DNA from: Mesodorylaimus sp. YZB2_4
Lineage: Eukaryota > Nematoda > Enoplea > Dorylaimida > Dorylaimidae
Length of the DNA stretch: 64,000 nt
Assembly: GCA_030248295.1 (NCBI GenBank)
Contig: JASANH010001018.1
Location: 682,001 to 746,000, forward strand
Reading direction: 5' to 3'
Made by a program: the position numbers and the translations under genes. Positions within the stretch are counted from its first letter, which is position 1, and each line of letters opens with the position of its first letter. The notes beneath the pieces were generated by a model. That model saw nothing but the letters and a program-made list of their open reading frames with translations. It made no database searches and had not been told where the DNA came from. Shown piece by piece: positions 4,680-53,500 of the stretch.

Positions 4680-5096
4680 GTTGGCGGCTAGTCAGCTATA
4701 AATAACGAATGCGCAAAGTCTCTCGTGACCTATTCCTTGTAAGAAACTCATCAGGTTGATTTTCCACTTTTAGAAGCAGTCAAGGCTGTGACTCGACCCA
4801 CGCAGCAGGAAGCGATGTACCAATAAGAAATCGAATTTTCAAGCACCCATTGTAAGAAACGGAAGGTCGTTACCGACTCTCAGAGGCCTTTATCGGCAGG
4901 GCCATATGAAGAGAACGTAGCCATAATCTATGCGAGCAGCAGGGGAACTATAGTTCCATAAGAAACTCGTAACTGCAGGGGAACGTTATCTAGGGAGGCC
5001 TGAGGAACTAGGGACTGCGGCTATACCTAATGTGACCTCCAATGTATCGGGCGAAGATCCTAAAGATAGGCGGTTGTCAAGAACAAGCTCCTGTAC

Positions 5097-6368
5097 ATGA
5101 TCATGGACGACTTACCGAAGGATTTGCGAATAGGAGTCATCGACGACGAGCCGTACACGAGCAGTTGTTCCTTCGACCCCGTTTGCCCTAATCGCGGTTC
5201 GGCTATGGAAATGGCCATAATTGTGTGCCAAGTATTACGCATGAATTGTTCTTTTAGCAAATTCGATTCTTTTGTTTATGGCACAGTGCTAGAAAACGGC
5301 ACTGTGACAGGCATTCTAGGCGCTATCGAACGAGGCGAATATGACACACACATTCCAAATCTGACCCCCAATTACGTTCGGTCTCAAGCAGTCGATTTCA
5401 GCCAACCTTACTATTACACCGATTCCATATTGGTCACCCGTACTTCACTGAGCAAAGAGACCACGGGATGGTCGGTGCTGAGTGCATTTCACTGGCACGT
5501 CTGGCTCCTATTCTCGATCGCCCTGATCTTCACATCAGCCTTGATCACCCTGTTTGTTCACAGTGAATTCGTACTGCATCCTGTCCACTTTGTCGGGTAT
5601 CTTATAGAAACTTGCGTTCGCCTCTCGCTCGTCAATGAACATCGCAAATTCTTTTTCCAGCATCGACACACCCGCGTGCTTTGCATTTTCTGGGGTTACA
5701 GTATTGCCATTTTGGCCAGCGCTTACAGCGGCGTCCTGTTTTCGCAGAAGATCGGAGCTGATGCGTCAGCACCGTTCACAGATTTCGAAGGTTTTATTCA
5801 ATGCGTGGAAAATAGGAAATGTGTCGTAGTCAGTCCGTTGCTATCAGTTTCGTTCATTCTCTTTCTGACTGCTCCTGGCAGTCCACACGCGCCCCGTTTC
5901 GAAAAAGCCTTCAAGAAAAATCCAATCAGGCTTGTAAAGAAAAATGAAATCCCTCAAGCAATATTGAGCGAACAAAGCCTTTATTTGGTCTGGGTCACTT
6001 CAAAAAATGAGATTTTTACAGTTATTAATGAGAAAACGCGATGTTCATATTTTATTGTGCCAATGCCGGAGGCAGATATCGGCGCATTTCCTTTGAGAAA
6101 AGGATCAAAAAAACTTATGAAAAGTCTGGATATTATGGCATCGACAGTGCATGAAATAGGATTGGCATTTGCGCTAAAACTAGAAGTCATGGATCAAACA
6201 TGTTCGAACTCTGTGGCAGCCTTTGAAGCAGTTCAAGCAAATAATAAGAAACTGACTAGTTTTGAGAAATCTTTGAAAATACCTTTCTATTTTTATTTAG
6301 CTGGATTGGGCGGAGCATTAACTGTCTTTATCTTCGAAAACCAATTCCCTACGACTTTTCACTTTTAA
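5097..6368 (+). CDS. divergent ionotropic glutamate receptor-like protein, copy A
   Basis: Predicted membrane protein of 423 residues with ligand-gated glutamate receptor architecture but no amino-terminal domain. Residues about 9-118 resemble the S1 ligand-binding lobe: LRIGVIDDEPYTS, then the NLTPNYVRSQAVDFSQPYYYTDS stretch, which matches the family 'R..vdFs.PY' motif. TM1 lies at about 131-155, the pore/TM3 region at about 193-217, the S2 lobe at about 225-385 and a C-terminal TM4 at about 394-418. The canonical SYTANLAAF motif of TM3 is replaced by SAYSGVLFS, so gating or ion selectivity cannot be assumed. The body is one uninterrupted exon. No signal peptide follows this ATG; the frame is open back to an AG at 5072, so a short 5' exon may exist. 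The downstream gene at 8847 is a tandem paralogue. Similar short receptor-like genes are expanded in nematodes. Confidence 0.85.
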   Translation: MIMDDLPKDLRIGVIDDEPYTSSCSFDPVCPNRGSAMEMAIIVCQVLRMNCSFSKFDSFVYGTVLENGTVTGILGAIERGEYDTHIPNLTPNYVRSQAVDFSQPYYYTDSILVTRTSLSKETTGWSVLSAFHWHVWLLFSIALIFTSALITLFVHSEFVLHPVHFVGYLIETCVRLSLVNEHRKFFFQHRHTRVLCIFWGYSIAILASAYSGVLFSQKIGADASAPFTDFEGFIQCVENRKCVVVSPLLSVSFILFLTAPGSPHAPRFEKAFKKNPIRLVKKNEIPQAILSEQSLYLVWVTSKNEIFTVINEKTRCSYFIVPMPEADIGAFPLRKGSKKLMKSLDIMASTVHEIGLAFALKLEVMDQTCSNSVAAFEAVQANNKKLTSFEKSLKIPFYFYLAGLGGALTVFIFENQFPTTFHF

Positions 6369-8846
6369 TTTTGAAACCCTATTTGTGAGCACTGTTATTT
6401 TGCTGTTACCCACTCGTGTTGAGGCGATGTTGCATTTCTGTCGCTTTGCAGCTGCTGCCTATTGCCATCTCATGTGACCGTAATTTAGAGATGCTTTTTG
6501 GATGAACCAACCATGCTCAAGCTTAAAAATTGTGATCCGGCCCCAGTTTTGGATGAGATGTCAATAGAGGTACCAAAATAGTCGAGCTGCACTTTGTCGT
6601 GCTGAAATATAGAGATATGCTGAGATGCAGTGAAGGCGACAACCGATTACTGATTTCAGCTGTGCTTACACTGGAGATCAGACAAACAACCAGTGCCCTG
6701 ACTGTACTGCTCAGATCACCACACATGTGCAGGAAATATGCATTTCAGCATTTTCGATTGTGGTGGGGTTAGAATCCATCTCGGATGCTCGTCAAGCAAA
6801 GCATCAGAGTATCCAGCAGAATGTTGACTATCCTTTTAGCTCGGCCATGATCCAGCCGGAGCCAGAGCTTTATTTATTCTGATTTTAAAATTACGAAATA
6901 GCATTGATTCGGATATACTGTAGCTTTGTGTGATTATGAGCGATTCAAATCTGCGATAACTAAAATATGCTCTTGAAAACTTATTTAATTTGTAACATGT
7001 TAATTTTTGTTTCGTGTCTGTACCTGCACGATTGCACGTCTAACGATAACTGCTGCAGGTATCAGTAAAATAATGATATTGCTGCGCCTGTTTTTTAATC
7101 AGTATGGAAACTAATTTTCCTGATAAACTGGGTTGCCTTCTCGCTCTTGCAGACCCCCACGTGACCCTCGCGGTTTCTGTCCTATCTACTGTACTTCGGT
7201 AGGTCATATCCTGTCCCACGTCCGCGAATCAGAGGATTGTACCACCACTAGAATGGCGCAGTGGCTCCTCATCGTACAGAAAGGAATCAATGAGACGCAC
7301 GTTAATTAGACTCGAGCGGCAGTTTATTACATTACCCCAACCTGCTCTAAAGACTTCGGCTGTTGTGCATTAGTCTGCAGCAGCTAAGCCCGACTGCGAC
7401 TGATAACTCCATATACTCCAATTTAAAATTTGTTTGAATATTGATGTAGAATTTCCCAAAAAAGCCAAGTTATTCTGTTTTGCCAACAACTGTGGCTGGA
7501 AGACATACTGTGTTGTAAACGTTAGCGCGTCCCTCGCATGGGCTCCCTCAAACATTCAAAGCTGAGCAGGGTGACGCCAGAACATGGCGAGCACCATTAA
7601 TGCAACAAGTCATTCGGCAAAGAACTCATCTCAGTGAGCCTCGTTTAAGGCCCATTTTTACTCTGATAAGTCACTGTGTAGCATAAACGTAAAACGCGAC
7701 CTAAACCCGCGCTGGGGCACGTCAAAATCGTGCACAAAATTGACGAATATCTCCACGTGTGCAATGCAATTTTATATCCTGTAATTTGTCGTCTGAAGCA
7801 TTTGGTCTTTAGAACAGGTTTCCCGCTAGATTTCGTCGTTGCTTGATATCATGTGCTCTTTTAGGGCTTTACTCATTGATAGAGTGGGCATGGGGCGCTA
7901 AGAATGCTTAGGAAGACTACCTGGGGAAGGGGGGTCAGGGAAGAAAAGACGTCAAGGCCGAGGTCTAGCCGACCATATTGAACATCAAACTAAAACTATC
8001 CTCTAATCCATCAAGTAGGACATAGGCGAACATCGAGTTGATGGGGGTTTCGCGAATTGATAAGACAACAGCAATCAAGCAATTACCAATCACGTAAAAT
8101 TAAACAAATCAGTAATCAATTTTGACGTATTTCCTGCCTCTTGACAGATTACACCAGATAAAAATTCTTTAATCTATCACAAAATGGGGCATGTCAAAAT
8201 TCGAAAGCTGTTGTATCATTGGCCACTTGTCATGACACACTCGAGTGACTGCCATTTTTTGCAGTAGAAGCATAAAACAGCCACAGCATATACCACGACG
8301 CGCATATTATGCAGTGTCACAGACATAAGTGGGACATAAATGGTGATATAGAACACGTTTCCGATGGATTGTGACCTCAAGCACGGTCGAAAGCTCTTGC
8401 TGACCTTCTATCAAGTAAATCTCGATGACGTGAATGGACGCAGTGGAATTAGTCTGTACCAACAAGTGAGTTACTTCCGTTTTCTTCGAGTTAACGCTCT
8501 GACATGCACACTCACAATCAGTTTTACAAATTCAAAGAAAACTGTTGACAGGGAATGTGAGCATATATTTTAGGATTTGAGGAGCTTTTGCTGTGCACCT
8601 GTTCGTACAAGACAGAAGCCGTGATTATGTAGGCGTTCATAATCCTGCAGATTAGGAAGAATGCAAGGGAAACTCTGGAAACCTCTCAGGATCTGTGCAA
8701 TGGGGTGCTCATATAAATAACTTTCTTTATGCTGATGCCAGAGGGTCGTATCAGTTGCGACTCATTGATATAGTATTCTTTATCTTTCCAGGAATAAACG
8801 AACAACTAAGAAATTTGTAAGAAAATGTGCTCCTAGCACGACGATC
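6369..8846. other. intergenic between the two GluR-like genes
   Basis: About 2.5 kb without a gene I can support. Open frames here are short and lack domains. A good acceptor (ATCTTTCCAG) sits at about 8791, and the frame from it into copy B is open, so the last 55 bp may be 5' coding or leader of copy B. Confidence 0.5.
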
Positions 8847-10103
8847 ATGAACTTACAACAGCGAGCCTTACGTATTGGCGTGATTGACGATCCCCCCTTC
8901 ACCAGTAAATGCTCATTTGACGATATCTGCCCAAATCGAGGTGCAGGCGTTGAAATTTCGATAATGGTATGCAAGTTACTTAATCTAAATTGCACATTCA
9001 TCAAATACGATACCGCGATTTATGGCACCGCATATGATAACGGTACTGCCACTGGCATTATTGGAGCTGTTCAGAAGGGCGAACTCGACACTCATTTACC
9101 AAATTTGACTCCGACTTTTGATCGTTCAAGGGCCATAGATTTCAGTCAGATGTATTACTTCTCGGAGGCGGTTGTGGTCACCCGCAATTCACCCAGAGAG
9201 GATGAATTGGGCTGGTCGGTACTGTACGCATTTCAGTGGAAAGTGTGGGTGATATTTGCAACAACTTTAATTTTGACAGCGGCTCTAATAACCATTTTTG
9301 CTCGAAAAGATAGCTTTTTGCATCCAGTGAAATTCATCATTTTCCTTCTCGAAACTTGTGTTCTGCTGTCCTTTGTCAATGAACATCGTAAAGTCTTCTT
9401 CAAACACCGCCCTACGTTGATATTATCCATATTTTGGGGGTACAGCATTTTAATTTTGGGCAGTGCCTATAGTGGCATTTTATTCTCGAAGAAAATTGGG
9501 ACAATTATCGACGCCCCGTATACTGATTTCGAAAGTTTTGTTACATGCGTGGAAGAAGGCAGGTGCGTGGTGGTCACAACCATGCTCTCCGTCTCGTTCA
9601 CTTTATTCCTGACAGCATCTGGAAGTCCCCACGCCCCTCGTTTCGAGAAAGCTTTTCGAAAAAACCCAATCCGGGTGATCAGCAGGGAGATAATTGGGCA
9701 GAAAATTTTAGACGAAAGAAATATCTATTTAACGTGGGTTACATCAAGAAACTCTTTCGCGGACATTATTGAAGACGAAAATCAATGTTCCTACTTCGCT
9801 GTTCCCATGCCTCTGATAGACGTTGGTGGGTTTCCAGTACGAAAAGGGGATACAAAACTGTTACAAGGGTTCGATATTATGGCATCAGTAATTCGCGAGT
9901 TGGGGTTCGCCTTCGAAATGGGATTAGAAACCGGACAGAAATCGTGTTTGGACTCGATGACGGCTTATGCCGCCGTTCAAGAAAATCAACAAAAAATGAC
10001 TAGTTTCCAAAAATTATTGAAAGTTCCCCTCTATTTTAATGTTTTTGGCTTATGCGCAGCTGTTATCGCGCTGATTATAGAAAAATACGTTAGTGTAAAG
10101 TAA
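8847..10103 (+). CDS. divergent ionotropic glutamate receptor-like protein, copy B
   Basis: Tandem paralogue of the gene at 5097: 418 residues, same domain order and no gap in the open frame. Shared landmarks include LRIGVIDD-PPFTS, CPNRG, YGT-NGT-TGIIGA, NLTPTFDRSRAIDFSQ, FWGYSILILGSAYSGILFS and SGSPHAPRFEKAF-KNPIR. As in copy A, the TM3 SYTANLAAF motif is lost. A single long exon is unusual beside the intron-rich neighbours. The frame is open upstream to an acceptor ending at about 8791, so a 5' exon may add residues. Both lobes and all hydrophobic segments are intact, so I infer it is functional. Ligand and physiological role are unknown. Confidence 0.85.
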   Translation: MNLQQRALRIGVIDDPPFTSKCSFDDICPNRGAGVEISIMVCKLLNLNCTFIKYDTAIYGTAYDNGTATGIIGAVQKGELDTHLPNLTPTFDRSRAIDFSQMYYFSEAVVVTRNSPREDELGWSVLYAFQWKVWVIFATTLILTAALITIFARKDSFLHPVKFIIFLLETCVLLSFVNEHRKVFFKHRPTLILSIFWGYSILILGSAYSGILFSKKIGTIIDAPYTDFESFVTCVEEGRCVVVTTMLSVSFTLFLTASGSPHAPRFEKAFRKNPIRVISREIIGQKILDERNIYLTWVTSRNSFADIIEDENQCSYFAVPMPLIDVGGFPVRKGDTKLLQGFDIMASVIRELGFAFEMGLETGQKSCLDSMTAYAAVQENQQKMTSFQKLLKVPLYFNVFGLCAAVIALIIEKYVSVK

Positions 10104-40139: not shown

Positions 40140-41929
40140 GCTCCTCTAAAATCGAGATAAAAGCTTAGCTAGCTTTTACTTTACTTAAAAGTCGACATTT
40201 CTATTTCAAATCAAGAACAAGCTCTAATCTTGATCGTACAGCATAGTATTTGCTGTATGAAGAGAGGGTTTATATAGCAAAGGGAGTCATGATGGGGCCC
40301 ACAAATGAGAGGACAAGAAGGTTTTTGTATTTCCTTTACAAATGATAATTATTTTCCGAATGTCGAGGTCAGAATTAAATGAATTTTGTTTTGGCAGAGC
40401 GCTTATTGGACGTATATCTTTGTCGAATCTCTCCTGTACCGTAACGGAAATAATTATATTTCTGACGCGGCATTGAAAAATATTTTCAATTTTGTCTTTT
40501 CAGAAAATTCAATAATTTTTATCATCTCTGTTATAATGACGCACGTCTTTTCAGAACTCTGAATAATATGCGAGCAAAGAAGACAGTGCTGGCATATTTA
40601 GTATAAGTAAAGCCATAGACCACGGAGCCAGTACGATCGGCTCCCACCTCGACTACCCAATAGATCGAAGCATTCACATGAAAGCGCAAGCGGATGCTAA
40701 AAATACAAACGTACACGTCAAGATTGACAAGATTTTTTGTTTCTAAGATAAGATAAGCCAAGGGTGTGCAAATTGCGACATTGCGTTTAATAGCTTTGCG
40801 TTAACATAAGGGTGCATATGACAGCACCCAGGGACCAGGCGTAGGTCAGAGGTTTTTTGTGGATATTTTTTAGATATTACGAGTTAGTAGGGAAATAAAG
40901 ACCATTCACTGATTTTACATTTTGGAGAGCGAGAGAGGTGTAAACCGCGAGGGAGAAGAAAGGGGCTGCACACACAAATTCACGCACTACAAATACGATT
41001 CTCACACTTCTTGAAATTGTTGCAGCTGCCCCGGGGAGTGAGCAGCATGCCATTGGTACAAAAGGAAGCGCGTCAACACAAGCGAGACTTCCACTGGGGA
41101 GAACATAACGGAGTGGTACCGTCTTTGGGAGTAAATGTAGTACTTGCTAGAAGCAATGACATAGCCTTTTTGCTAACCGCATGTGGAAGTTCCCCAGTCA
41201 CGAGCCCAAACAACGAGTGGTCCGTTGTCCGTACCAAATTCACCAGTTCATGTCTCTCGAAGTCCTGCAGAACCCCTGACCAAACTGTGCTTGATCTCGG
41301 ACATGACACTAGCGTAAGCTCAATTGTATCTGATTCTGCTCCACTCGCGCAGCAGTCTGGGGACTCGTACACTCCCCACGAGTAAATCTTGGTGGGAGCA
41401 GCTAAGATCAGGACTTTAAATTGATACCATTTAAGACAGGCTTTCTCTAAGGTTCGACCCGTGAAACATAGGTTGCCAAGTGAAATTTTTTGACCCCTTT
41501 TTTTATGTGTGAATTACATGCATCCGTGAGTGGTGATAGCGACGCAGCAATGCTTTTTTGTGCACACTCGATTTTCACGGGATTATCCCAAAAGTTTTTA
41601 GATAGAATGGGAATTATTTATCGGAAATGACACTTTTCTCGGCCTGTGTCCTGCATTCAGGTATGTGTCTCCCGGGTACTGCATAAGTCCTTCTGTACTA
41701 CAGCGATGGGCTGCTGTGACGAACGATATCAGCCATTTGGTTTTCTGAAATTTGCTTGCTTTATTGCGTACCTGCTTCAGACCAAACAGTTTCGCGCCAA
41801 ATCATGAATGCAATAACCGCTTACGACAAAATCTAGCAGTTGTCTGCTAGTTCCTCTGTGGTAAGACTTAATTCGTTTGGACTACTTTGCACGTTTCTTG
41901 ACAAATTTTGTTTGTTTATCGAGGTCGCG
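40140..41929. other. intergenic upstream of PIH1D1
   Basis: Overlapping frames at 41011-41385 (+) and 41073-41372 (-) have no recognised domain. The last 200 bp should include the PIH1D1 promoter. Confidence 0.45.
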
Positions 41930-42814
41930 ATGGAGATTTTAAAGTCAGAACCTTTTTGGACCGTAAAACCGAAGCCGGCATTTTGCGTAAAATTGCGTCT
42001 CAAAGGTGAGGACGGCAAAGAAGAAAAGATTTTCCTTAATTTCTGCACTTGCGACGAATTACCACCTCCAGTCGACGACATCGATGAAGATCGATTAGCT
42101 CTGATTTTGGAATCATCCGATCCTACAAGTTATCGAATCCCGATCAGTGTCGGAGAAGCGCATGTGGAAGAAGATAATCGCGGTCAACCATGTTCCGCCT
42201 TCGATATAATCTTGAATGAACGTTTTTATTCGAAAAGAGTCATCAATAGTGAACTTTTTCGAGCATTTCTTATTCTGGTAGCTATCGATGCAGTGGAATC
42301 GAAACACGGGTTGCGTGGCATTGATCGACAGAACTGGGTAATCATGAAAAATCGGAAATGCATCGGTGAATTGCAACCGCAACGGATTCGAAAGCAGCCA
42401 AGACCATTGATCGAAGTAGTGGATGAAAACGACCAGAGAAATTCTAGCTTTTCAAAATCAGCCTCTGAAATCGTGAAATCTGAAAGCCAAGATCCAGAGC
42501 TTATGAAATTGTCGAAATCAGTTTCCGAAATAGCAGAAACCGTGGAAGCGCCACTTTTGGAATCAAGATACGAAATCAGGAAGGACCATGTTACGAATCC
42601 GACCAAAATCACCGCCACATTTCGACTGAAAGGCGTAAAGTCGATATCAGATATAGAATTAGACGTGGGTGAACACAGGATACGTGTAGTCGTGCCCAGC
42701 AGCCGATGTTGCGAGGATGTCTTCTTGCCCGTGTCCTTGGACCGTAAAGAAGCTAAAGCGAGGTTTCTTGCGGATGAGGAAAAATTGATCATCGAAATTC
42801 CCATTCAAAAGTAA
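41930..42814 (+). CDS. PIH1D1: PIH1 domain-containing protein 1-like (R2TP co-chaperone)
   Basis: Adaptor of the R2TP/HSP90 co-chaperone complex, which assembles snoRNPs, PIKK kinases and RNA polymerase. The 294-residue protein has no intron. The PIH1 domain spans about residues 5-150: KPAFCVKLRL, EEKIFLNFCTCDELPPP, YRIPISVGEAHVEEDNRGQPCSAFDII and NWVIMKNRKCIGE, all in family order. A Ser-rich linker carries two SKSxSEI repeats (FSKSASEIV, LSKSVSEIA) with acidic context. A C-terminal CS-like beta domain (about 210-294) matches other PIH1 proteins. The start ATG at 41930 puts the conserved EPFWTVKPKPAFC near the N-terminus. Its stop lies 304 bp before the LDHD start on the same strand. Confidence 0.87.
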   Translation: MEILKSEPFWTVKPKPAFCVKLRLKGEDGKEEKIFLNFCTCDELPPPVDDIDEDRLALILESSDPTSYRIPISVGEAHVEEDNRGQPCSAFDIILNERFYSKRVINSELFRAFLILVAIDAVESKHGLRGIDRQNWVIMKNRKCIGELQPQRIRKQPRPLIEVVDENDQRNSSFSKSASEIVKSESQDPELMKLSKSVSEIAETVEAPLLESRYEIRKDHVTNPTKITATFRLKGVKSISDIELDVGEHRIRVVVPSSRCCEDVFLPVSLDRKEAKARFLADEEKLIIEIPIQK

Positions 42815-43118: not shown

Positions 43119-46100
43119 ATGTTCCTATTTGCACGGACACTTGGTGCGGGTGCCGCGCACGCGTGGCGGAGATCGCTTTCGATTGTGGCCTCAGCATCGC
43201 TTAACCCATTTTCATGTTCGGACATTGATTCCTTGGCCATGGAATTACGAAAGAGTGTGGGTGATAAGCTGATATCAGTGAACGAAACTACCCGCCAGCA
43301 AAGATCCACTGATGAGTCCTATCACAGGTAAGGGTGCTGGCACCTTATCACTACTACACTGGCCCTGACGGTCTGTCAGCCCCATGCCAAACGTTTGGTG
43401 AGCATGGGACTAACGTAGCGAAACAGTACATTACACAGCAACTGTATGTAGCAGTGCTGTGGGAGGATACACAAGCATGGTCCTGTTGATAAAGGTGTCG
43501 GAATTGTTGGCGCCACTTTAGTATATTGGAATCGGAACTTTTACAACATGACAATTTACGTCCTGTGTGTGTAGGTATGTACGAGTAGACTGCTACAGAA
43601 GTATGCAGTACACTATACACTGCATTAGGTAGGTACGAGGCATATGCGCATACCTGTACAGTACAGGTATGCCATCTGGCATATGTGCATATGCATGGTA
43701 TAGTACAGGAATAGGTACTCGATTACCTGTAGGTGTGTGTGTGTGTATACCTGCTGGTTGTTGGTATACCACTGTATGTAACGTTACATACCTCTGGGAT
43801 ATATGTATCATAGTGTAATTACGTAATTTGTAACCCGCAGTGCGGCCTGGCCATGGAATGAATCTTGTAATGGACGCAGTCGAGGGCAGGATGTACAGTA
43901 CTCTACTTGCGGCTCAGCTGAGTTCGGCCAGTTCTAGTTTATTCACGTAGAAACATGGTCTTTGTAATTGGCGTATATGTCTTATCTGCACCTATCAGTG
44001 CACTGGTTCAAGCAGCCTGCTTCGCATAAGGTAGAGCCACACAAGAGACTGAGACCACATTCATTACAGTTGTGCCCAGGTGAAGATCAGAAGTCACTAT
44101 GCTATACCAGCAGCAAATATCGGCAGCCTCTACTGCCTATATATGTACTTATTTGGAATATGTTGTCTGCAGTTCCACTGAAATAATTTGTCCTCCTGGT
44201 TTTTTGTGCATTACGACTAGTCCGTACTTCTAGAGCAGAGTGTCGACTGCCAATCGAGCCTCTGCATCTGGTGACACTGTACTTTGTCGCAGCTCTTTAA
44301 ACATAGTTACTGTATTTCCAAGCTGAACTCTCACTCGCAGCCATGTATGGCTCATCAGCGTGACCAAGTGGTGCTACATTGTAGCCACGGCTACGCGTGG
44401 ATTGTTGTATCGCCGACAGAAGTGGAGCAGGTGGCTGCCACACTTCGCATATGCAATTCCCGTCACGCTCCAGTTATCCCATCCGGCTCTTGCACTGGTA
44501 TCGAAGGAGGAGTGACAGCACCATTTGTAAGTCAGTGTTCTGTCGGCGTATCTGAATCTCAGACCTGCTGTTTAGGGTGGTGTCTCCATCGACACAACAG
44601 GCCTGAACCAGATCATTGCAGTCAATGCGGAGGATTTCGATTGTACGGTGCAGGCTGGAGTGACCAGGAAATCACTGAATACCTACTTGAGGGACACTGG
44701 TCTCTGGTTCCCCATTGGTATGATGCAGCCATTGCCAAGTGTCTGGTACCTTGTCCCATGATAGTTCCACTTCAGATCCTGGTGCCGATGCCTCGCTGGG
44801 TGGAATGTGCGCTACCAGCGCCTCGGGTACAAATGCAGTTCGTTACGGTACAATGCAGCATAACGTGCTCAATCTGCAGGTGGTCTTACCATCGGGAGAA
44901 ATCGTGCACACGCGTGGGCGCGGCAGGCGTGCCAAGTAAGTGAGTGATGTTCATGATCAGTGGACATCTCCGAATGGACCGTTTCAGGAAATCATCTGCT
45001 GGTTATAATCTCACCAACCTGTTCATTGGATCTGAGGGTACATTGGGGGTGATCACGGCAGCAACGCTGAAACTGTATGGAAAACCAGAGTCGGTAGGGG
45101 TTGCTAGTGACCACTGCGACCTCAGGTTATCGTCATAACGTTATAAACAGTTCAAGCACACTGCGCACTAGGCGGCACAAAAGCGTAGCCACCTGAAATA
45201 ATGTAGAATATGTATATGAATGGTGGCACACAGTAGGTGGATGTGAACATTTTAAAGATATGTTTTCGAAAGTTACAATGAGCCCCAAACGACTTTGTCT
45301 GATAATGCATTCCACATAGACACATGCTATAAAATGCATGTGTGTATAGGCTTCTGTGCACCAGCGGCAAAATTCAGGTAATGTATTTACAAAGGCCTCT
45401 GGTTCGATACCCGCTCAGGGCGCAAGTTTTTACTTTTTGTTCAATTTCTTGTTTCGATTCAAAAAGCATATGCATGCACTGTCCTCACTTTCTTGTGAAC
45501 AGAAAATTTGTCAGAGTAACCCAGTCTGATGAGTTCCCCTCACTTCCACAAGTGGCTATTTCAGGTCGCTTCCGCAGTCTGCTCCTTTCCTTCTGAAAAA
45601 AATGCTGTCGACGCGGTTGTGCTCACATTGCAGTCCTGTATTCCTGTTGCAAGAATTGGTATGTTTTCAAAATTTTATGTCAGACATTTGACCTTAGTGG
45701 AGCCATTTCAGAATTTCTGGACGATATGCAAATGAAGGCTTGCAATGCGTTCAGTCACTTGAATTATCAAGTGGCCCCCACCCTGTTCCTCGAGTTCCAG
45801 GGGTCCCCGCAAGAAGTCACCTCGCAAGCCCAAGCTGTAGGTAAGTCGAGGGGGCGCCCACCCCAACTCGATCCATATATCCTTTTGTTTTCAGGCGAGA
45901 TATGTGAGGGGTACGGCGGGTCGGAGTTCCAGTGGTCGAAGGAAGAGTCAGAACGTAATCGATTATGGCACGCTAGACACAATGCCTATTATGCAGCTCT
46001 GGCACTTAGTCCCGGCTCCAAGGTACGCACCCTCGCTCCTCATTCACCTCATCTCATGCATGCCTTTCGTGTTTAGAATTACACAACTGACGTGTGCGTG

Positions 46101-49100
46101 CCCATTTCGAGACTGGCCGAGGCGATCGTTGAGGCGAAACGAGACATTGTTGCATCTGGTCTAATAGGTATGTCAATGACGAGGGCCACCCTCGGGTTCC
46201 CGTCATGTATAAATTTGAGAAGCGATGGAAAGTGATGCTAAAGTGCGAGGAGCTGAGGGAGGATGGTGGGTGCATATTGATTGCGTAACGCCCGAAGAAA
46301 AGTGTCATGATTTTAATTATATACCGCCCCCAGCCCCTGTATTTTTATTTAAAACTTGACTTAGATCTGATGATGAAACCAATGTACGACATATTGGCTT
46401 GATTAGGAATGCTGGTTTTCCACGCAAAATTTAATCCACATGCATTTTCTGCTTGCTTTCACTGATTGTCCAAAGAAACAGAATTAATGTTAATAGACCT
46501 TTGAAAATGCATAGTCGAGCTTTTTCTATGCTCAGGAGTTTTAATTTAGCGGCTCTTGGCTTGTTTTTCGCGCTCCAGGTTGGCTTTCTAGGATGCCCTT
46601 TCTATATCCTTTCCATCTCGACATATTCTTTTTGCTGCGGGCGGTGTTCGGAACAGGTGGTGGATAGATGAGAGTAGGAAAGCGCCGATATGTGACCCGT
46701 GGTCTGAATATGGATGGCACTTCTTCCACCCCCGTCCTCCGCCCCTGCTTCCCCAGGCCAGTGCAAAAATGGTTTTTAATTCTTAAACAGCTTCCATAGC
46801 CAGGACAATGAATGGCATGCTTGGACAATCCTTTTCGTGTTTTAGAGGACTGTTTTTCACTGTGCCGCCCCACCCAGCCCTTAGCTCACACTCTCAATAA
46901 TTAGCACCTCATTGTGTCCAGTAGCTTTGATCTCTAACGTCTTGTCCGTGCGTATGAGAAAGGCCTGTTTTATAGGCCAGATGCTAGCTATAAAATTGAA
47001 ATTGACGAGGGCATGATTTTTAGGCACGATCGTAGGTCATGTTGGTGACGGCAACTTCCACTGCCTGCTGCTGGTCGATCCAAACAGTGAGGACCAAATG
47101 CTTCGCGTTCGTCAGGTGTCCGATCGTTTAGTCAAGTAAGGAGAATACGGATGTGCTAATCCGCCTGAGGTGTATTTCGTCCGTCCGAGCTGAACTTTGC
47201 TCGAAAGACTTGTGTCTCGCGACTCCTCGGCAATCGGGCGAGCGAAGACCCGAAGTGCGAGTGAAAGAGGATCAAGGGTGTTTCATGGTTGACTTTTATG
47301 GGTCTGGATTGATTGTTATTGTGAGTGCGTAATTTGGTCGAGCTTATCAATCCGTCGACACGTTAAATTCGACCCGAGTTGATTCAACAGCCTGCCGACC
47401 GCCTCGAAGCTTTAAAAGGCTCGAACGAGGATTCCCGTGGGAAAAATGTATTGGCTGCTTTAGCATTCGAGCGTTCGGGTTTCGTTTGGTGGTGATGAGG
47501 AAACTAATACCGTTCTTGGAATATGCGCGGCGCTGGCCGGTGCTAGTGTTTTCGCCGCTTCAGTTTCTCGCCGCTCTGATGCGCGTATTTCCCATGCTGA
47601 CCATAGAAAACTTTTCTGCCGCCTGATGACTCCAGTGACAGCAAAGAACTTGCGCCATGGCGCCCAGCTAGTCGCCTATGAGCTTTAGCTGATTTGAATC
47701 GAGTTGTCGGGCTGTGTGGCTCCGGCTCCCACGGCGATGGTCGCGACGAAACGTGTCCCGCGGCAAATGGAAATTGATTGATTGCATTCAATATCCTCGT
47801 CCGTTCGTTACTCGGATATTTTGTTCTCGCTATTCGCTCACGTTCGCAAGGACTCCCAAACACAACTGTTTTAGTTCGAGTCATGGATAACAAAAGTTAC
47901 AGCGAGGCCTACGAGACATTGGAAGAATTCAACGCCTTCTACAAAGATGCTCATCCCTATTTCAGTATAGGCGTGTGTTTCTGCGGGATCCTATTCAACG
48001 TGTGCAATATGGTCGTACTGACCAGACCGACCATGGACTCGAACCCTATCAACGCCCTGCTAACTGTGATCGCCCTGTGCGACGCGGCCGTCATGATCTC
48101 CTACATCCCGTTCGCCGTGTGGAGCAGTCGCGACTACAGTTACTGCGCCATGCACTGGCAAACATTCGGGTGGGCTTGCTTCGTCCTGTTCAATTCGGCC
48201 TTGACCGTCATTTGTCACGCGGTCAGTATTTGGCTGACAGTGGCCACTGCTTTTATTCGGGCCGTCACCGTTCGCCAGCTTGCGTTCGCTACGATCTGGA
48301 CGGCTCGCAATTCCTATTTGCTCTCACTGATCACTTTCTGTGCAGTGGTCATTCTCTACGTCCCGGGTCTCTTGTCCTTTACATTGTCCAGTCGCCCGTT
48401 CGACCCCAGTCGCTGCCCTGATATGGTCTTGAACGGGTCCGCGGAGAACGGAAGCGTGTGGGTGGAACTCGTCTCGGCCAGTGCTGACGAGATAAGAATA
48501 TATAATACGATCGTTTCTAAAATTGGTCATTTGCATGACTATTTCTTATTGAAATTGGCATTTTGGATCAATGGTGTTTTATTCAAGATGGTACCTTGCG
48601 TCCTTTTGACCATATTCATCGGCGTCCTCTTACGTATTCTGACCGAAGTGAAAAAACGCAAAATTCGTTTACGCTCAAGTTCGGGCATTGGTGGCGAGTT
48701 GGGTACCAAGGAGACACTGACCAATTCAAGACCTAGAATCAGATCTGGTTCTTCGGCGCCCTCATCCGACCACTCTTATCACCGAGCTGACAGGACCACT
48801 TCCATGCTCGTTGTCTTGCTAGCTGTATTCGTATTGGCGGAATTGCCTCAAGGCCTGTTGTCCATAATTACGGGCTTGTCAAGCGCTGAATTCCGTACTA
48901 AAGTCTACATGAATTTAGGACCTTTGATGGATTTGCTGTCACTTTTAAACTCGGCTGCTAATTTTATTATTTATTGCTCGATGAGCCAAAAGTTCCGCGA
49001 AGTTTTCATTCGGTCTTTTTTGCCCCCTTCCTGCGCCGCTGCTTTACACATTCGTCATCACATTTACGAGACGGGCGATCCTTCGTTGTGCGCGACAGGG

Positions 49101-49872
49101 GGCGATCCACGAGGTCTGCAACGACGGGTCACCTCGCAGTGGGTCCAACGTAGTCCTCTAAAGGAGAGGCAAAGTCAGGGCGCAGATGCACCCTTGACAG
49201 CGAGCTCATATCATGAAAACGGGAATGACAAACTTTTGACGCCTGCATTCATTGGAAATAGAAAATTGGTCTCTGAATCTTTATCGCCGCTTTTGCAATC
49301 GCCGCCGGCTGACACCTTTTGCTAGGCTTTTTGGCATTCGTGTACAATTTTCTGACACTAAAGTACTGTAGCTTAGAGTAATGGTAACGTGTTGATCGTG
49401 CTGGCTTGATGTAGTTTGTTGCTTTTCTTGGATGAGCCTTTCTTGGAAGCATAAGAAAACATAACAGGCTTATAGCGAGTACTTCGTATCGACTGAAAAA
49501 AGCTCTTGTTTAGACCCTCAAGAGCCAATACATCTTCAGAAAGCATAATTTAAAAATCGAGAACACATGTTTCATTGACTAGCTCCGAAGCAGAAATAGA
49601 ATTGCCCTTTTCTAGACCTTTTTCAAATAAAAACCATTGATGGAAGCTTTTTTACATCCTCACGCTTGCTTCAAGCAATCTTTCCTTTTTATTGAAGACG
49701 AGCCTTGGCAGTTGGAGGCACGTGCACGGGCGAGCACGGGATCGGGATGGGAAAGAAGCACTATTTGAGTGAAGAACTAACCGAAGAGACTTTGGACATT
49801 ATGCGTGTCGTGAAGAAGGCCATTGATCCGAACGGTATTATGAATCCTGGAAAAGTGATACCGAACAAATAA
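43119..49872 (+). CDS. LDHD: mitochondrial D-lactate dehydrogenase (LDHD), FAD-linked
   Basis: Oxidises D-lactate and related D-2-hydroxyacids, passing electrons towards cytochrome c. Exons: 43119-43327, 44385-44526, 44576-44717, 44776-44935, 44997-45093, 45565-45658, 45712-45840, 45895-46022, 46077-46167, 47024-47135, 49698-49872; 492 residues, all phases consistent. The N-terminus is basic and Ser/Ala-rich with an expected mitochondrial presequence. The FAD-binding domain shows [72 protein letters not shown] and [20 protein letters not shown]. The C-terminal domain has [27 protein letters not shown] and [17 protein letters not shown], ending [22 protein letters not shown] acceptor about 19 bp before the ATG could take a spliced leader. 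The last intron (47136-49697) hosts a complete GPCR gene. Confidence 0.93.
43648..43672. repeat. perfect 12-bp hairpin
   Basis: GCATACCTGTAC-A-GTACAGGTATGC, in LDHD intron 1, followed by related GCATATG palindromes to about 43700. No known RNA structure recognised. Confidence 0.8.
47883..49325 (+). CDS. rhodopsin-like neuropeptide GPCR, dmsr/myosuppressin-receptor type
   Basis: Seven-transmembrane receptor of the plasma membrane, 480 residues, no intron. Extracellular N-terminus; TM1 with [14 protein letters not shown], the loop [14 protein letters not shown] (TM2), YIPFAVW, TM3 with [14 protein letters not shown] in the DRY position, and N-glycosylation sites (NGSAENGS) in extracellular loop 2. 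TM6 reads [22 protein letters not shown] and TM7 [25 protein letters not shown]. The ELPQG and NS..NFI.YC.MS..FR strings match invertebrate myosuppressin/FMRFamide-like receptors and nematode dmsr genes. It lies wholly inside the last LDHD intron, same strand. An acceptor (AACTGTTTTAG) ends 8 nt before the ATG, ideal for spliced-leader addition. An open frame extends upstream to 47778, but that extension is unlike the family. Confidence 0.88.
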   Translation: MDNKSYSEAYETLEEFNAFYKDAHPYFSIGVCFCGILFNVCNMVVLTRPTMDSNPINALLTVIALCDAAVMISYIPFAVWSSRDYSYCAMHWQTFGWACFVLFNSALTVICHAVSIWLTVATAFIRAVTVRQLAFATIWTARNSYLLSLITFCAVVILYVPGLLSFTLSSRPFDPSRCPDMVLNGSAENGSVWVELVSASADEIRIYNTIVSKIGHLHDYFLLKLAFWINGVLFKMVPCVLLTIFIGVLLRILTEVKKRKIRLRSSSGIGGELGTKETLTNSRPRIRSGSSAPSSDHSYHRADRTTSMLVVLLAVFVLAELPQGLLSIITGLSSAEFRTKVYMNLGPLMDLLSLLNSAANFIIYCSMSQKFREVFIRSFLPPSCAAALHIRHHIYETGDPSLCATGGDPRGLQRRVTSQWVQRSPLKERQSQGADAPLTASSYHENGNDKLLTPAFIGNRKLVSESLSPLLQSPPADTFC

Positions 49873-50091
49873 GGAGAAGTTTTTCCGCTAAGAAAAGTAA
49901 ATGCCAAAATGGAAATGCCTGGTGATTGAAAATCTATAAAATGTGAGAAGAAAGTGGGTTCAGTTTTCATGATTGCGTGTGCTTTTGCCTCAGCTTACTT
50001 CAGTTTGACAAAATCAACTAGTATGTGAAGTTTTTTTTCAGAAAATCTTCTCTGATAAGAAAATGACGTGTTCGTATTTCTATTTATTTAG

Positions 50092-50358
50092 TATTATGGG
50101 CATTACGTGACCACTGACGAACCTGAATTGGTGCAAGTACGTCAAGGGCGCATTGAGATGCCTAGTCGAGTCGGGTTATTTATAGAAGATTATATTTCTG
50201 TGCACTCGCCCAGTACAATATATGACGCACATAAAAATATTGTTTTGCATGCACACGGCATCGAAGAACTGGGAGCTAGCTCGAGCTTCAGTGAAGAATG
50301 GATGCTGGATAGGCAAGACTGGCGTAGTTGTCTTTTATGCTCCCGCAGTTTGATATAA
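50092..50358 (+). CDS. candidate terminal exon, unknown protein
   Basis: Starts after a strong acceptor (TATTTATTTAG) and stays open for 88 codons to TAA. The frame begins YYGHYVTTDEPELVQVR and includes MPSRVGLFIEDYIS and EEWMLDRQDWRS, with coding-like composition. No family recognised. It may be an alternative 3' exon of the upstream LDHD gene or part of an unannotated gene. Confidence 0.35.
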   Translation, partial: YYGHYVTTDEPELVQVRQGRIEMPSRVGLFIEDYISVHSPSTIYDAHKNIVLHAHGIEELGASSSFSEEWMLDRQDWRSCLLCSRSLI

Positions 50359-50568
50359 GAAAATCATGCATCGAAATGCACTTACATTTTAAAAACATGC
50401 ATTCGCAAAGCAATATTTTTTAATGGAATGTTTGCTGTTTTAGTGGCAATAACTGTCGTGTAACTTTCAATCAAAACACTCGCCTAGAACAGTGGATGAA
50501 CCCTAGTGAAATTAAAAAAAGGGCAAGCAAAGGTAGGAACAGGAGGGTTAGTTTCGAGTTGTGGTCGA

Positions 50569-53500
50569 CTAGAAATTATTCATTTCCTTGGCCATTTCTT
50601 TGAATGCTTCGAAAGTTTCTCGTCCAGTGGGCAATATGTACTCGGCTGGATACAGGAATCCGTGACTGTAATCTGCAATGCCAGGCGTAAATATAAGATT
50701 TCGAGGATTCCCTAGCTTAGTCCTGCTCATTTTTCCATGCTTGTTTATGTTTTGACATCGTGTGATAGTGCGTGCCAAATGCGCACTCTGACTGATCCTC
50801 GTTCGACACATAAAAACACGAAAAGACCCTGGACTCACCAGAATCCTCTGGTCGTAATTCTAACGCGATTGCGAATGGTATGCCCAAACTGTGAGCATAA
50901 TCCACACTCGTCCCCGACGCGGGATCTAGAAATAAATTGTAAAAAGAAATCAGCTTTTTTGTCAATAATTTCAAGTGAACAAAGCAGCATGGCTTACACA
51001 TGAGATCGGCGATAGTGCCAAAAGTATATTCGGTCTGATTAACTCGTCTCAGTGCCTCCAGTGCTTTCAAAGCCATTTGGCTCTTTTGTAATTAAAAAGA
51101 AACCTTGATTAAGCTTTCTTCTCGAGATGAGTTCAGGGAGGGTACCTGTCTCGGATAGTTATCAGGCTTTTGCGAGTGATATCCCCACGGCACTAGCCAC
51201 AATTGACCGTACGAATGCAAGGACACGTAAGCTTTCAAAGAGGGTGCCAAATGACGCAGTTTCGATGCTAGTGCTTCAGTTTCAATCTCAGAAAATGGAT
51301 GGGCGCCAGCGTAGATGTTCGAACATGGGTTCATCGTATTTGCACCAGCCTCTGACAAAATATGAAATTGAAGAGAAGGGAAGCCGAGTCATGCACACTG
51401 TACTGTACCTCCCCAATGGTAGTCAAAATTGCGATTGATATCCACCCCTCTGCACACATAATGGACGGAGGAGGGGCGACTGCGTGAATATACTGATCGT
51501 GATTTGCGCCACAGTCTGTCCTGCGTGAGAGAAGAGGAGTCGTGGAATTTCAGCTTTCTTTTGACGGTCAAAGTGGGCATGCAAATGCTTACTATAGTTT
51601 GGCTGTAGACATAGCCGTCAGGATTCGCGACCGGAACTGCAATGCAGATGGCGGTAAGAAAAGAGAGGATAGGGTGCAATAACTCACCAATATACCAATC
51701 GATATTTTGTAAAGCGAGTAAATCAGTGGCGTTATGCAATAGCTAAAAAAACCAGTGTAAGGCTCCTGCATACTAAGCGCGTGGACGCGTGCGGGCGTGC
51801 GAGCGCGCGTGCGTGAACGAAAATTTAGGTGGGCGTGGGCATCGTATCCAACTCATCCGTGCACTGGTGCCATGCTGGCCCAGGGCCAGACATGAGAATG
51901 AAACGTCGCTCGAGGTCACAGTTCCTGGTTGCAGGCAGGGAGGTAACTGGTTTTGAGTTCCCAGTCTGAATTGCATTCTAGGCAATTTTGGACTAGCGCC
52001 CCAGAGCCTCACTGACGGTTGACAAGTGGCTGCCCCTCGAATAGATCATTTCACTGTTTTTCAAAAGTCGCAGATTTGAAACTCGCGCGCGGAGGCTACT
52101 TACAGCAAATGGTAATGAAATCTCATCAAGCAACTCAAGCTGTTCGCTGGAAATTGCACCTTGGGAAAACTCCCATGTGCTCGTTGGGAAAACCCCTTTG
52201 TGGTTCGTGAATAAAAGATACAGAGATATCGTGGGCTTGGTGGAACTGCTCCTGCGACTTGAGCCTTCCTCTGGCTCGTCCTAATTCACCCTAGGACGGG
52301 TCAAGGATTTCACCAGGCCAGAAATCGTGAGCTGGCCATAAAGGAATTCTCACTTGTCTAATTATGTACAAGGCAGTGGCGTGAGATATCCATTCTCGGG
52401 CGTGCAGGCCGGCATCAATAAAAATGGCAGGTTTCTTCTCGCTAGCGTGACTATTTCTGGCAGACGAACCAATCTAAGAAAGATAAATGACTGTAAATGA
52501 ATCAAGTTGGGATTTTAAGTGGCACATTGTCCACCCACTTTCGCCAGCCATAATTGACGTCCTTCGGCAGTTGTGCCTATACTCGACAGATGGAAACGAT
52601 GGGGGTGTGATGAGTTCAGCTGACGAAGCCAGGTCTCTATCTGAGAAAAGTGCAAAGTGGCACTAGATATGAATGCCACTAGGCGCCTGATAATGGCTTG
52701 CACGAGCTGCTGTCGAGGCCTCCATTTCAAGTTAGGAGCTCGTTTCATTGTCAGTACCTGCTGTGCTGATACCTCAGTGACCGTTAGTCACTGCCTGTAT
52801 AGTACGCCTATCGAAGGACATATCTCTGCGCTACACACAAGTAACATGAGCTTTGAGCGGGATTCGAACTCAAGCCTTGTGATTCCTGTCCAATGTGCTA
52901 AGCATCCCGCCTGTGAATTCAATGAATCTGTCCCGCAGTCACAAACATACTCTTTCAAATGAATGATAATCATCCAATGGGAATGGTGGCGCTGCTTGAT
53001 GTGTTGTACTTGCACGCCTTCGCACTCTTTTCCCTTGACTGTACTTGATTTCCCTAGAAACAAGTTACTCGTATTGCAAAACCCTTCCTCAACAAAAGGA
53101 TCATACTGGCCAACATTTTTAATAACGATGTGGTAATCAAGGTGACTGCTTTTCAGTAATTTCGATAATGTGGGCAGGAAATCAGGTGAGACCAGGATGT
53201 CCATGAATGGGTTGTTCCTCGTGGGATAGCTCCAGACATCCACCTGCGAAAACATCATGACATGCTTCTGCACGGTACTAGACTCGCTGTACCTTCCGTG
53301 TGTCATCGTCTGATATTCGCTGGAGCCAGTCAACATCAAGCATATCGTTGACCTGTATCCGAAGTAGTTCATACCTGCAGTGGAAAGAATGTATGTCAGG
53401 CAACACCAGGCAACAGCCCTGGTGACCCAAGTTCTGGAGGCTCCCGACTGACTGACCAAGAGCGTAAAGTACTGGACACTATGTAGGCTCTCAATGCTTG

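Follow-up and report, generated by a model that had tools for sequence, protein, structure and literature searches.

A predicted rhodopsin-like receptor gene nested on the same strand within the last intron of a putative mitochondrial D-lactate dehydrogenase gene in the nematode Mesodorylaimus sp. YZB2_4

The window considered here is the whole analysed stretch of 64,000 nucleotides from Mesodorylaimus sp. YZB2_4, the draft genome of which comprises 145 Mb in 1067 contigs. The cuticle-collagen N-terminal family Col_cuticle_N, which marks nematodes, has 133 matches in this genome versus none in 14 control genomes. The locus contains two coding frames on the plus strand, one assigned to mitochondrial D-lactate dehydrogenase (LDHD) and one to a receptor located within the tenth LDHD intron, and is made up of the following features (all positions are those of the window).

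43119-43327, 44385-44526, 44576-44717, 44776-44935, and 44988-45093, plus strand: LDHD exons 1-5, from an in-frame splice model
45565-45658, 45712-45840, 45895-46022, 46077-46167, and 47024-47135, plus strand: LDHD exons 6-10, from the same in-frame splice model
43119-47135, plus strand: LDHD exons 1-10 with introns 1-9, from the splice model and the continuity with PDB 8jdc_A from residue 42 onward
47136-49697, plus strand: tenth LDHD intron (2562 bp, the longest of the ten), within which the receptor lies
47136-47882, plus strand: presumed receptor promoter and 5' UTR (747 bases), suggested by composition
47861-47874, plus strand: acceptor-like site cacaactgttttag, 8 nt before the receptor ATG, which scores no better than chance
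47883-49325, plus strand: receptor coding sequence (480 aa and a stop codon), a predicted Srw/rhodopsin-like GPCR, from its single open frame and Pfam matches
49626-49631, plus strand: AATAAA poly-A signal, presumed to serve the receptor mRNA, 66 bases before exon 11
49698-49872, plus strand: LDHD exon 11 including the stop codon, from the splice model, the PDB alignment, and a FAD-oxidase_C match

Large single-frame ORFs found elsewhere in the window include a PIH1-domain ORF (41837-42811), which is an uninterrupted frame in a CpG-rich stretch just upstream of LDHD, a Core-2/I-Branching ORF, and two plus-strand ORFs with ionotropic-glutamate-receptor-like ligand-binding matches (5070-6365 and 8769-10100), apparently a tandem pair. 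Long uninterrupted frames are therefore not rare in this window. Beyond LDHD, the minus strand carries a carboxypeptidase-like gene, of which a frame at 52791-53573 matches Propep_M14.

The LDHD model spans 43119-49872 and encodes a 495-aa protein in 11 modelled exons without an internal stop; the introns are of the GT..AG type, and one reading frame is kept across all 11 exons. Intron lengths range from 49 to 58 bp in six cases and are 471, 856, 1057, and 2562 bp in the other four. The best solved-structure match of the protein is PDB 8jdc_A ("Probable D-lactate dehydrogenase, mitochondrial"; E 3.4e-173, query residues 42-492), whereas the match to the D-2-hydroxyglutarate dehydrogenase D2HGDH (6lpn_A, E 1.2e-44) is far weaker. 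Such a full-length match to a solved LDHD supports the assignment of the host gene as LDHD rather than D-2-hydroxyglutarate dehydrogenase. The start ATG and the portion of exon 1 that precedes residue 42 are presumably as modelled. At the junction between exons 10 and 11, the donor after position 47135 (TCAA/GTAAGG, phase 2; the slash marks the exon boundary) is in frame with the acceptor before position 49698 (ATTGAAG/ACG), and the alignment with 8jdc_A crosses this junction gap-free. A 58-aa frame containing exon 11 matches the Pfam family FAD-oxidase_C to its end, and has a single full-strength place in the genome, the only other match being located on contig C30 (38% identity, E 6e-5). The gap-free alignment and the single place of exon 11 thus bear out the original prediction, according to which LDHD coding halts at the donor at 47135 and resumes at 49698 with matching phase.

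The receptor frame within intron 10 exceeds the curated cut-offs of two Pfam profiles, Srw PF10324 (E 2.6e-31, 109.6 bits, cut-off 22.2) and 7tm_1 PF00001 (E 3.3e-9, 37 bits, cut-off 30.5), and its product is accordingly classified as a predicted rhodopsin-like GPCR (Srw/7tm_1). A hydropathy scan recovered six helices (seven segments, two of them overlapping), with TM7 placed from the profile match alone. Among solved structures, the orexin and neuropeptide Y receptors are the closest by sequence, and the protein is probably a neuropeptide receptor. Its motif and TM7 stretch appear to resemble those of the DMSR/myosuppressin-type RFamide receptors, such as DMSR-1 of C. elegans (PMC5241116), with which the predicted receptor would also share the Pfam Srw and 7tm_1 assignment. 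The coding sequence is read in the same direction as LDHD and is wholly contained in the one intron, so that the 480-residue receptor frame and its same-strand nesting, as originally described, stand.

An alignment of the receptor with its closest paralogue, located on contig C3 (locus L024), covers 437 codons with 57% amino acid identity, and the nucleotide identities at codon positions 1, 2, and 3 are 0.65, 0.76, and 0.38, respectively. This codon pattern is as expected under purifying selection on the protein, to which it points, and by the same codon-position identities the receptor gene appears to be functional rather than a relic. In a genome search, the sequence of intron 10 has a full-length match at its own place only. 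A draft genome in so many contigs leaves room for an assembly artefact that put the receptor into the LDHD intron, but the window contains no N, both genes are intact, the splice sites are in frame, and the receptor DNA has no second full-length place in the genome; we consider such an artefact extremely improbable.

A total of 38 distinct loci of the receptor family (the receptor included) were compared with respect to the continuity of the 7TM region, which was scored as single-frame when one stop-to-stop frame covered query residues 60 to 360. In 34 of these loci, a single open frame runs from TM1 through TM7, a proportion that overstates the intronless share, since the family search favours uninterrupted frames; besides the receptor itself, this applies to 33 of the 37 other loci, the closest paralogue included. 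The loci failing the test are L036, L040, L048, and L051, and in-frame stops are present within the longer matches at three of the passing loci (L008, L018, and L035). The set derives from a search in which 89 of 140 candidates were scored; 12 matches with E-values of 8.9e-6 or weaker were left out, and two further loci, L022 (one gene with L009) and L016 (covered by L053), were dropped.

These comparisons bear on the origin of the nested copy, for which retroposition of a receptor mRNA had been proposed. A recent retrogene, in which a spliced receptor mRNA was reverse-transcribed into the LDHD intron and lost its introns in that event, would agree with the single coding exon inside an intron and with a 12-base repeat pair with one mismatch (47510-47521 and 49437-49448), of which one copy lies on each side of the coding sequence. 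However, with 33/37 of the other loci uninterrupted, no intron loss is needed at the nested receptor, and the loss of parental introns expected of a retrogene was not seen, no intron-bearing parent having been seen among the other 37 loci. No recent parent was found either, the best-scoring paralogue having just 51-57% identity to the receptor. Furthermore, at least one 12-base pair of this kind was obtained in 84 of 200 shuffles, which is chance level, and A runs in the 3' segment of the intron reach 6 bases at most, although such marks can decay. We therefore regard a recent retrogene as very unlikely: the absence of coding introns, being common in the receptor family, is no sign of retroposition for this copy, the proposal finds no specific support, and retroposition was not retained as the default explanation. 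Most likely, the receptor would have come by relocation or duplication, through any route, of an already intronless family member and not by fresh reverse transcription; retroposition may have taken place long ago, when the receptor family arose. The idea that members of this family are habitually nested was not supported at the one paralogue scanned, the closest one: its flanks, about 4 kb in either direction, gave no Pfam match in six frames, and therefore no host gene was recognised there.

The 747 bases that precede the receptor ATG within intron 10 are compositionally distinct from the three remaining long introns of LDHD, with a GC content of 0.509 and a CpG o/e of 1.37 versus 0.42-0.45 and 0.57-0.71, respectively. 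A CpG o/e of 1.37 is reached by 22 of 1266 sliding windows, located at two places besides the receptor 5' segment. In 33 other members of the family, the 700 bases preceding the open frame have a median CpG o/e of 0.98, and one of the 33 reaches 1.37. A receptor promoter is likely to be situated within the CpG-rich segment 47136-47882, as this composition weakly suggests. The best donor-like site in 47136-47874 has a score of 3.3, compared with 6.8-12.3 for the LDHD donors, the matrix having been built from the same ten LDHD donors with which the candidate sites were compared. With no donor-like site near the LDHD donors in strength, an unspliced receptor 5' UTR is thus the simplest arrangement.

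On the 3' side of the receptor, the AATAAA at 49626 is the single occurrence of this hexamer on the plus strand between 43001 and 50800, and it is intronic. No AATAAA was found after the LDHD stop codon on the plus strand (49873-50800), where the nearest ATTAAA is at 50511. The intronic signal fits a poly-A site of the receptor and would at the same time be a hazard for LDHD, in agreement with the earlier argument that LDHD splicing must skip a gene carrying its own poly-A signal. The top-scoring acceptor-like site of intron 10 is found at 49514-49553 (9.7, versus 8.7 for the real exon 11 acceptor), and joining of exon 10 to 49514 would give a short alternative LDHD C-terminus followed by a stop ahead of the AATAAA. 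This candidate terminal exon was set aside as a lead only, its score being at chance level (reached by 57/500 shuffles of the 3' segment and by 195/500 shuffles of the whole intron).

The receptor had also been credited with an acceptor of its own, 8 nt ahead of the ATG. The site is an ordinary TTTTAG, no better than shuffled sequence: it scores 3.9 and ranks 11th among the 120 AG sites of intron 10, and an acceptor-like site at least as good occurs in 481/500 shuffled versions of the receptor 5' segment. As the acceptor matrix was built from the ten LDHD acceptors only, with leave-one-out scores of 2.2-9.5, the test is weak, and the TTTTAG at 47874 could still be used. In the family acceptor test, the shuffle p of this site was 0.525. 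In the closest paralogue, the first ATG is preceded, at a distance of 66 nt, by a fairly good acceptor-like site (score 8.6, shuffle p 0.08), and members of this subfamily may accordingly have a spliced 5' UTR or a leader site. When the 150 bases preceding the first ATG were scanned, the top acceptor scored 6 or more in 14 of 34 family members versus 7 of 34 in the antisense control. A conserved 5' UTR intron or leader site throughout the family was rejected on these counts, which come from a weak test, and on the score of the receptor itself. Six single-frame members of the receptor family, encoded on a common strand, are clustered on contig C37 (about 289-343 kb), and five of the six have good acceptor-like sites (8.2 to 13.9) shortly before the ATG.

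Trans-splicing is common in nematodes. For H. contortus, the source cited includes a table of SL1/SL2 genes (PMC3156134). The canonical SL1 leader was not found here with up to 3 mismatches, nor by an Rfam SL1 search among the 50 of 31302 candidates that were scored, both searches having been run without a positive control. Separate SL capping of the receptor, a further element of the original prediction, is accordingly left unsupported by these searches and not refuted by them.

The two genes could alternatively share transcription, the receptor having no promoter of its own and the LDHD pre-mRNA being trans-spliced at 47874 or exon 10 being joined there. Such a scheme draws on the common strand, the TTTTAG before the receptor ATG, the frequency of trans-splicing in this phylum, and the stronger acceptor-like sites of the closest paralogue and of the five C37 members (8.2 or more), but it is opposed by the low score and rank of the receptor site, by its recurrence in shuffled sequence, and by the SL1 leader not being found with up to 3 mismatches. 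Exon 10 joined at 47874 would moreover read NSSHG and then a stop, yielding a bicistronic RNA with a truncated LDHD. We judge this sharing to be quite unlikely. It is very unlikely that LDHD and the receptor constitute one transcription unit, whether by intronic trans-splicing or with the poly-A site at 49626 ending a short LDHD isoform, such as one in which exon 10 is joined to 49514; were this the case, the choice between the two products would be a switch.

In our opinion, the locus is highly likely to represent two independent protein-coding genes, the receptor gene being nested on the same strand and having its own promoter and poly-A site. LDHD would be transcribed through 43119-49872, and intron 10 would be spliced out whole. 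A separate receptor mRNA would begin at a start of its own in the CpG-rich segment that precedes the ATG and would end at the AATAAA at 49626.

Nested genes constitute about 6% of all genes in D. melanogaster, 2.1% in C. elegans, and 0.5% in human (PMC3786989). The 567 protein-coding nested pairs given for C. elegans in PMC12274878 likewise represent genes within introns of a nematode, but they are opposite-strand pairs, whereas LDHD and the receptor share a strand; the parts of the nested-gene literature cited here contain no figure for same-strand nested pairs in a nematode. Retrotransposition is presumed by the authors for the LRRTM genes in the alpha-catenin introns of vertebrates (PMC3933685), which resemble the receptor in being nervous-system membrane-protein genes inside a conserved host intron and differ from it in lying on the opposite strand. 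Of the 158 protein-coding nested genes in one human set, 53 were classed as tandem, and 31 of these were judged genuine on re-evaluation; tandem nested genes are described as able to interfere with host splicing and poly-adenylation (PMC3192792). In the open-licence PMC literature, we found no paper on a D-lactate dehydrogenase gene with a nested gene in its intron and no on-subject paper on intronless GPCR retroposition in nematodes. The human gene KTI12 consists of a single exon. It is located in intron 2 of TXNDC12 in the same direction as its host, and the splicing of the host skips a gene with its own signals (PMC3192792), as is proposed for LDHD and the receptor; the gene families of the two pairs differ. 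The LDHD/receptor pair is a further example of this documented same-strand nested arrangement, and a clean, well-delimited one, in which splicing would have to compete with an AATAAA placed 66 bases before the last exon of the host; intronic poly-adenylation and transcriptional interference could be studied with this pair as a test case.
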